NCBI GenBank assembly: GCA_964035015.1 | Contig: OZ036017.1 | Coordinates: forward strand, 1,363,501 to 1,427,500 | Source of the DNA: Corallium rubrum | Lineage: Eukaryota > Cnidaria > Anthozoa > Scleralcyonacea > Coralliidae | DNA: 64,000 nucleotides | Reading direction: 5' to 3' | Part shown: positions 36,983 to 38,106 of the stretch, in pieces | Layout: every line of letters begins with the position of its first letter | Position numbering within the stretch: the first letter of the stretch is position 1 | Notes under the pieces: generated by a model | Databases searched by the model: none | What the model was told of the DNA's origin: nothing | The model's input: the letters and a program-made list of their open reading frames with translations, nothing else | Translations under genes and position numbers: made by a program

Positions 36983-37185
36983 GGGCCTCATCAGTGTAGT
37001 GCTGATGAGCAGGATGAAGGCAACTGCTATTTACAGTCACCTTTGGTGCCTCACAAATTGTGGGACATCAAAAGCATGCCAGAGCGCTCAAACTGCAAGC
37101 AGTGAGCGTGCGCACAAAGCGTAAGCAGCAATGGCTCATCCTGTAGAGCGCTCAATATGACCTAAAGGCCATAGAGCGTTATCTA

Positions 37186-37231
37186 ACTACAGACGGTACC
37201 GTTTCGGCCTTTCGGGCCTCATCAGTGTAGT
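37186..37231 (-). ncRNA. Type I hammerhead ribozyme, Y1 unit junction 1
   Basis: Read on the - strand from 37231: stem I strand ACTACA, core CTGATGA, stem II GGCC-CGAAA-GGCC, core GAAA, stem III ACG-GTAC-CGT (first pair being the last A of GAAA with U), cleavage triplet GTC, then TGTAGT closing stem I perfectly. All conserved core positions are present. Cleavage is expected between 37192 and 37191. The short stem III suggests it acts best as a dimer or with loop contacts. Confidence 0.85.
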
Positions 37232-37416
37232 GCTGATGAGCAGGATGAAGGCAACTGCTATTTACAGTCACCTTTGGTGCCTCACAAATTGTGGTACATC
37301 AGAACTATGCCAGAGCGCTCAAACTGCAAGCAGTGAGCGTGCGCACAATGCGTAAGCAGCAATGGCTCATTCTGTAGAGCGCTCAATATGATCTAAAGGC
37401 CATAGAGCGTTATCTA

Positions 37417-37462
37417 ACTACAGACGGTACCGTTTCGGCCTTTCGGGCCTCATCAGTGTAGT
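37417..37462 (-). ncRNA. Type I hammerhead ribozyme, Y1 unit junction 2
   Basis: Identical core and stems to 37186-37231, one repeat length (231) away. Confidence 0.85.
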
Positions 37463-37647
37463 GCTGATGAGCAGGATGAAGGTAACTGCTATTTACAGTC
37501 ACCTTTGGTGCCTCACAAATTGTGGGACATCAAAAGCATGCCAGAGCGCTCAAACTGCAAGCAGTGAGCGTGCGCACAAAGCGTAAGCAGCAATGGCTCA
37601 TCCTGTAGAGCGCTCAATATGACCTAAAGGCCATAGAGCGTTATCTA

Positions 37648-37693
37648 ACTACAGACGGTACCGTTTCGGCCTTTCGGGCCTCATCAGTGTAGT
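37648..37693 (-). ncRNA. Type I hammerhead ribozyme, Y1 unit junction 3
   Basis: Identical core and stems to 37186-37231. Confidence 0.85.
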
Positions 37694-37878
37694 GCTGATG
37701 AGCAGGATGAAGGTAACTGCTATTTACAGTCACCTTTGGTGCCTCACAAATTGTGGTACATCAAAACTATGCCAGAGCGCTCAAACTGCAAGCAGTGAGC
37801 GTGCGCACAATGCGTAAGCAGCAATGGCTCATCCTGTAGAGCGCTCAATATGATCTAAAGGCCATAGAGCGTTATCTA

Positions 37879-37924
37879 ACTACAGACGGTACCGTTTCGG
37901 CCTTTCGGGCCTCATCAGTGTAGT
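37879..37924 (-). ncRNA. Type I hammerhead ribozyme, Y1 unit junction 4
   Basis: Identical core and stems to 37186-37231. Confidence 0.85.
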
Positions 37925-38106
37925 GCTGATGAGCAGGATGAAGGTAACTGCTATTTACAGTCACCTTTGGTGCCTCACAAATTGTGGGACATCAAAACCA
38001 TGCCAGAGCGCTCAAACTGCAAGCAGTGAGCGTGCGCACAATGCGTAAGCAGCAATGGCTCATCCTGTAGAGCGCTCAATATGACCTAAAGGCCATAGAG
38101 CGTTAT

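Follow-up and report, generated by a model that had tools for sequence, protein, structure and literature searches.

Penelope-like elements (PLEs) have been named as strong candidates for mobilising animal retrozymes (Cervera and de la Pena, 2020; PMC7229834), and the same paper describes most animal retrozyme circles as leaving the hammerhead ribozyme (HHR) free. As far as the accessible portion of a 2020 review goes (PMC7761336), retrozyme repeats show no conserved motif pointing to an autonomous partner. For PLEs, the available part of a study in Anolis describes AT-rich targets and an internal, two-site start of reverse transcription (PMC11167929), and the excerpt available of a further source states that simple AT-rich targets are favoured by Penelope elements (PMC3846280). 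The literature that we searched, mostly open-access main texts judged largely from titles and the beginnings of abstracts, yielded no report of a fixed 3' end or of a (TA)n target of animal retrozymes. What the Corallium rubrum family described here adds is its insertion anatomy, which makes the question of the moving enzyme and that of priming directly testable.

The stretch of C. rubrum DNA analysed here (64 kb, hereafter the window) contains on its minus strand a tandem array (array 1, 36981-38113) with a period of 231 bp, 4.9 copies and 97% matches in TRF, made up of five 231-bp units of which the first and last are incomplete. A preliminary description of this DNA had reported a 231-bp tandem repeat with a complete type I HHR at each full junction, and every conserved core base identical in four junctions. 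TRF and the letters of the minus strand bear out the former, and a letter-by-letter reading the latter, the four full junctions of array 1 being identical over the entire type I core. On the minus strand this core consists of stem I (ACTACA/TGTAGT), CTGATGA, GGCC-CGAAA-GGCC, GAAA, CGGTACCG and GTC, with a stem III of A-U, C-G and G-C pairs capped by a GUAC loop. HHRs 1 to 4 (all type I, minus strand) occupy 37879-37924, 37648-37693, 37417-37462 and 37186-37231, and cleavage would leave 37884, 37653, 37422 and 37191, respectively, as the first base past the cut. The fifth copy (36981-37000, minus strand; CTGATGA at 36994) retains the 5' strand of stem I, CTGATGA and GGCC and breaks off in the stem II loop. 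On its RNA-sense 5' side the array merges into a (GATA)n microsatellite with (TA)n (38104-38434, minus strand).

A duplicate of this array (array 2, 60693-61363, minus strand) comprises two full type I HHRs, HHR 5 at 61129-61174 and HHR 6 at 60898-60943 (minus strand; CTGATGA at 61168 and 60937, first base after the cut at 61134 and 60903), together with a truncated HHR at its end (60693-60712, minus strand) and a microsatellite on its RNA-sense 5' side (61354-61609, minus strand). Two unit types alternate, A B A B A in array 1 and A B A in array 2, which is shorter by 462 bp, that is, by two units. Such alternation is not directly obtainable from a one-monomer template; a dimeric template or later unequal exchange could give it. 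All six full cores of the window are identical, although its units differ by up to 3.5%. The GC content of four units is 48.1-49.8%, animal retrozymes being given as below 50% in the text and below 45% in a figure legend of PMC7229834. Setting aside the joined microsatellite, open frames across the unit reach at most about 50 aa between stops, and no PLE ORF (reverse transcriptase plus GIY-YIG endonuclease) was found in the unit; the retrozyme is not a PLE, and may use PLE proteins. Elsewhere in the window lie an 836-bp (ACAA)n run (27786-28621), a 17-bp satellite of more than 100 copies (34613-36383) and a fresh 359-bp tandem duplication (13553-14264).

Array 1 sits antisense within an intron of a plus-strand multi-sushi gene, as the preliminary description had placed it, with PF00084 matches in the ORFs on both sides (36481-36777 and 41275-41469). 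The sushi exon upstream of the array spans 36605-36772 and the next one after the intron about 41294-41464 (both plus strand with PF00084, splice sites assigned by eye). Exons and array form part of a segmental duplication (29028-40827 versus 53045-64000) whose main blocks are 98.7-99.5% identical, and additional repeated blocks, alike at about 96-98%, lie near 106-3332, 21194-25494 and 41062-44306. Duplication of blocks thus seems to be how the multi-sushi gene expands.

A generic and loose three-stem descriptor returned six HHRs in the 64 kb, exactly those of arrays 1 and 2, with none on the plus strand of the window, against a background of one HHR in 200 first-order Markov sequences of window length. 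The covariance-model search that the preliminary description had proposed went the other way: neither Rfam hammerhead model (RF00163, RF02275) matched at gathering anywhere in the window, the best match over array 1 being RF02275 at 20.3 bits (E 0.045) against a gathering score of 52, an outcome which that description had itself counted as a refutation. We regard a score below gathering as weak evidence against an intact core that is present in hundreds of copies, yet it stands as a result. Elsewhere in the C. rubrum genome RF00163 finds at least 40 hammerheads over the cut-off and at least 47 at E <= 0.001, figures that rest on 74 scored of 61716 candidates, and the window is absent among the places so listed. 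These matches over the cut-off indicate that other hammerhead families are present in the genome; type I hammerheads of such families, in at least 40 places over gathering, score up to 42.9 bits. The exact core pattern had no match in viral contigs.

A search of the genome (474 Mb, 312 contigs) with a 34-nt core, allowing up to 3 mismatches, returned at least 640 near-exact cores (320 + 320), whereas the reversed-pattern control returned 0 + 0. Matches drop toward the 5' side of the unit, from at least 640 at the HHR to 432 at positions 136-170 and 374 at positions 41-75, although the patterns may differ in variability. We compiled 75 distinct loci (L001-L082 minus seven overlapping duplicates), which are the first listed with an exact core in contig order, with full or small stretches and no random draw; together with the two window arrays they make 77 loci. 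The 33 full units, from 23 arrays including those of the window, measure 228-232 bp in 31 cases (231 bp in 15, 229 bp in 11, and 228, 230 or 232 bp in 5) and 211 and 212 bp in the other two, with a mean divergence of 2.0% within and 4.8% between arrays. Many copies are single or partial units, aligned stretches ranging from 42 to 920 bp (median 182 bp). The preliminary description had assigned the repeat to the retrozymes or hammerhead satellites, a class supported by the genome-wide dispersal, the 228-232-bp units, the intact cores and the lack of any coding content seen. The array is genuine and belongs to a dispersed family of metazoan non-LTR retrozymes. At one locus (L042, 1835-2040) an inverted retrozyme fragment (unit positions 134-175) adjoins a 5'-truncated copy that also starts at 134, an arrangement that looks like twin priming or template switching.

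The 77 loci contain 107 HHRs, of which 36 (six in the window) lead into another unit through TGTAGTTAGATA followed by TCGC or ACGC, while 71 (none in the window) are terminal. The RNA-sense 3' break lies 6-9 nt past the ribozyme cut in 61 of the 71 terminal junctions, the last unit base being position 8 in 50, position 6 in 7, positions 7 and 9 in 2 each, and elsewhere in 10. The 30 nt that follow show at least 80% TA alternation after 64 of these 71 junctions, against a baseline of 40/3024 such stretches in outer flanks and 4/2133 in the window; the seven that fall short are at L001, L027, L037, L045, L057, L072 and L082. A 3' end at unit position 12 was considered and discarded as a chance extension of TTAGATA into TTATATA, the true break lying at 6-9. 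RNA-sense 5' breakpoints, on the other hand, fall all round the unit (16, 3, 13, 11, 13, 7 and 5 in seven 33-bins). The (TA)n is found on the 5' side too in 38 of 68 stretches, as would be expected if insertion goes into (TA)n. Across the genome, 29-letter patterns with up to 2 mismatches count 335 junctions of HHR with (TA)n versus 280 of HHR with the next unit. When arrays were chosen by a mid-unit pattern, the exact 29-letter junction lay within 600 nt downstream in 25 of 77 (0.012 expected); among the other 52, ten were examined, nine of which join TA with some difference in a letter or in the length of the run (the junction in L001 being short) and one of which ends elsewhere. Stretches ending elsewhere also occur in L025, L042, L047 and L059.

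A fixed 3' end combined with scattered 5' ends is the pattern left when reverse transcription begins at a constant point and goes into (TA)n targets. We found no signal of a target-site duplication, an optional feature of metazoan non-LTR retrozymes, in the 20 stretches without 5' TA (1 versus 0.70 in shuffles). The PLE-like insertion anatomy, with a fixed internal 3' start by an AT-rich target and variable 5' truncation, characterises the loci chosen by exact core and not the window arrays. These have their microsatellite on the RNA-sense 5' side and a 3' end in unique DNA at position 211, which for array 1 is a break in the stem II loop. Later deletion on the 3' side would explain this odd end, a conjecture on our part.

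Matches to the GIY-YIG endonuclease of PLEs are common in the same genome, at least 143 in number (150 scored of 1845 candidates). We examined 20 stretches downstream of such matches, hand-picked for diversity, and found (TA)6 or more within 400 nt past the stop in 13 of them; among control stretches the figures are 29 of 240 for flanks (Fisher 3e-7) and 2 of 150 for the window. Such a repeat is missing in the remaining 7 PLE stretches, and in two of the 13 (L100 and L102) it is preceded by (CT)n. One PLE family has L048, L096 and L098 all ending in ...TTGATGTTT(TA)n, with L097 ending two letters earlier and L095 running on. In another, L092 has a short end and L088 and L093 are about 40 nt longer; these short and long ends resemble the two-site start published for PLEs in the part of PMC11167929 available. 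L089 has the short end (GATGTTT) followed by (GTGTT/GTGCT)n instead of (TA)n, which implies that PLE targets are not only TA. The putative start signal reads UGUAGUU|A in the retrozyme and UGAUGUUU in two PLE families, and UGWWGUU before the start is common to all three; it is absent from the other family ends examined (L086, L091 and L094), and the shared seven letters may be chance. BLAST similarity between the unit and PLE 3' regions is at chance level only.

Hammerhead-like motifs other than the unit's own occur in 5 of the 20 PLE stretches. The 500-nt flanks around retrozymes (68 kb) hold 11 such matches (10 places, 9 loci), compared with 3 in the outer parts (96 kb) and 1 in 61 kb of window sequence, with none for the reversed pattern in flanks, outer parts or window; elements with hammerheads are thus concentrated near the same (TA)n tracts. 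Rfam searches of four PLE 3' regions returned mostly low-complexity microRNA matches on (TA)n, and the 3' region of L086 matched RF02275 at 21.3 bits and, on the other strand, RF00163 at 21.6 bits, both below gathering. Locus L048 carries a PF01541 ORF (E 4e-7) followed by an HHR-like stretch and then by (TA)n, with the retrozyme about 130 bp further. Beside that retrozyme copy (L048, 417-1728) two PLE endonuclease ORFs, 91% alike, stand head to head and resemble the inverted PLE structures of rotifers as given in the accessible excerpt of PMC3846280. PLE matches by tblastn were found in 5 of the 75 loci (L022, L030, L037, L048 and L064) where candidate density would lead one to expect about one endonuclease, a comparison which, the thresholds being different, carries no evidential weight.

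Other repeats also border these tracts. Two clusters linked by shared repeats take in 50 of 138 flank stretches, which rules out that the flanks share nothing but (TA)n. The clusters are composed of several different repeats, some of them PLE ends (L048, L051), which in either orientation break off at (TA)n or close to it. Repeats with a constant last sequence next to (TA)n flank L012, L019, L023, L056 and L064, L031, L048 and L052, and L018, L042 and L055. In the C. rubrum genome (TA)n thus seems to be a place where many elements commonly insert, and since it borders many repeats, it does not by itself name the enzyme.

The window holds five ORFs of LINE type, four of which (three belonging to a single family) lead into (CTCA)n-type microsatellites. 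Those at 44548-48033, 50790-52190 and 52482-53045 end in long (CTCA)n-type arrays, and the one at 3498-6458 has a short (CTAT)n followed at its end by some 60 bp of (CTCA)n (all minus strand, with reverse transcriptase and endonuclease domains in 44548-48033 and 3498-6458). The remaining one (8112-9674) has (TA)6 117 nt past its stop, so that window LINEs cannot be said never to end at TA, and the contrast between LINEs and PLEs in (TA)n is weak. A protein search with a LINE ORF gave named matches that were distant only (Penicillium, Raphanus), the close ones being without names. The window further contains a BEL/Pao-type LTR retrotransposon (15049-20883, minus strand), with a 1342-aa ORF bearing Pao peptidase A17 and a 434-aa ORF that is integrase-like by eye. 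A 321-nt inverted repeat (arms 22608-22928 and 23856-24176, 96%) encloses an ORF, and each of its arms holds a tRNA-like match (Rfam 55 and 49 bits).

The end anatomy in the loci examined, the copy number and the presence in the same genome of PLEs with (TA)n behind many of them are observations. To account for them we propose a dispersed retrozyme family that is probably copied by PLE-type machinery from an internal start just past the ribozyme, in (TA)n DNA; we infer the PLE enzyme as mover, RNA as template and the circle as the form of that template. Multimeric minus-strand transcripts would be cut by the hammerhead, and the cut RNA would be ligated to a small circle by a host RNA ligase, by analogy with published retrozymes; on the same grounds, the division into 231-nt monomers and their circularisation put forward in the preliminary description would apply here. 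A PLE reverse transcriptase/endonuclease would nick (TA)n DNA, and copying would begin inside the retrozyme RNA, at an almost constant point where stem I ends (6-9 nt past the cut), and extend over a variable distance, in some cases beyond a full lap. The resulting insertions would share a fixed 3' end next to (TA)n while their 5' ends are scattered, and some would contain units in tandem; the window array would be a segmentally duplicated copy with its 3' part missing.

A circle and an uncut multimer would yield the same copy ends, since in either case the RNA that is copied runs on through the cut site. A more specific version of the PLE account, which we hold tentatively and with some doubt, is that the closed RNA circle is the transposition intermediate, on which a PLE reverse transcriptase primed by nicked (TA)n boards at the end of stem I and rolls round. 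If so, retrozymes would be parasites of PLEs, presenting a start signal like that of PLE RNA beside a hammerhead. In the predicted fold of the 231-nt circle, a minimum-energy prediction without tertiary contacts or magnesium, a 7-bp hairpin blocks the HHR core (-84.1 kcal/mol versus -76.4 kcal/mol with the HHR forced) by pairing CUCAUCA with UGAUGAG of the core, the blocking arm being CUCAUCAG. The whole monomer folds with a z of -4.19 versus shuffles, and the stability of the local 78-nt fold around the HHR is not above that of shuffles (z -0.36). We count these predictions, which point to a blocked hammerhead, against the proposed cycle. With its ribozyme blocked as predicted, the circle could persist.

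The rival that fares best, although we consider it unlikely, is a SINE-like spread in which read-through RNA of a source copy ending in TGTAGT(TA)n is copied from its (UA)n tail by a LINE, PLE or other reverse transcriptase, a scheme that would render internal initiation unnecessary and leave the hammerhead without a role or as a hindrance only. It accommodates the dominance of one junction, 50 of 71 breaking after position 8, but the other 21 break elsewhere, several of them with perfect (TA)n (L003, L063, L065 and L058), which looks like renewed joining. Window LINEs do have microsatellite 3' tails, one of the five with a TA stretch, and other repeats border the same (TA)n tracts; the hammerhead, however, would remove such a tail. 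Tail-primed copying, for which a circle is not needed, also suits the length of the stretches, the majority of which fall below a full unit (median 182 bp).

We find it improbable that the family is plain satellite DNA spread by recombination, for instance by DNA circles exchanging through (TA)n, with the hammerhead as a relic. The tandem arrangement, the difference of exactly two units (462 bp) between the window arrays, and the A-B alternation, which indicates unequal exchange or a dimeric template, would all fit; (TA)n on both sides of many copies would fit as well, yet exchange through flanking (TA)n should not yield one fixed and one scattered end, nor do the six identical window cores sit well with units up to 3.5% apart. 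That antisense transcripts or circles from the intron regulate the sushi gene is very improbable, for while the antisense intron position is found in both duplicates, hundreds of dispersed copies lie elsewhere, of which the array looks like just one more insertion, the descriptor detects no plus-strand HHR by which the gene's own pre-mRNA would be cut, and nothing supports the preliminary suggestion that the array is expressed from that gene or interferes with it.

If PLE-type machinery is the mover, the copy ends supply a mark of the partner, namely a nearly fixed start beside the ribozyme together with (TA)n targets, like several PLE ends in this genome. Genomes already available and assays with purified PLE enzyme would both allow this mark to be checked.

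Among known systems, the LTR retrozymes of plants have in common with the C. rubrum family an HHR blocked by self-pairing in the predicted circle, and differ by a type III HHR, by LTRs, by 4-bp target duplications and by their mostly 600-1000 bp dimers, according to PMC7229834 and the portion of PMC7761336 available. Animal retrozyme circles, by contrast, mostly have their HHR free (PMC7229834), so that the C. rubrum family, with its HHR predicted to be blocked, would be an exception. The hammerhead satellites of newt and axolotl, with units of 330-350 bp, share a type I HHR in which stem III is short and the tetraloop, being palindromic, could pair between two hammerheads (PMC7229834). A closer likeness, by description and not by sequence, is offered by the non-LTR retrozyme of Acropora millepora, which combines a type I HHR with 220-240 bp units in tandem (dimers and longer), a GC content below 50% and many copies in one genome (PMC7229834); most of the C. 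rubrum copies examined differ in that their 3' ends meet (TA)n 6-9 nt past the cut while their 5' ends are scattered, an anatomy undescribed in the main text of that paper. The Poseidon PLE of Anolis (Frangieh et al., 2024; PMC11167929), to judge from the accessible part of the study, has its cut 26 nt and its main start 111-118 nt into the ORF, whereas the retrozyme lacks an ORF, stems II and III of its HHR are closed, and its start lies 6-9 nt past the cut; what the two share are AT-rich targets, fixed internal 'tail' start sites and an HHR near the start.
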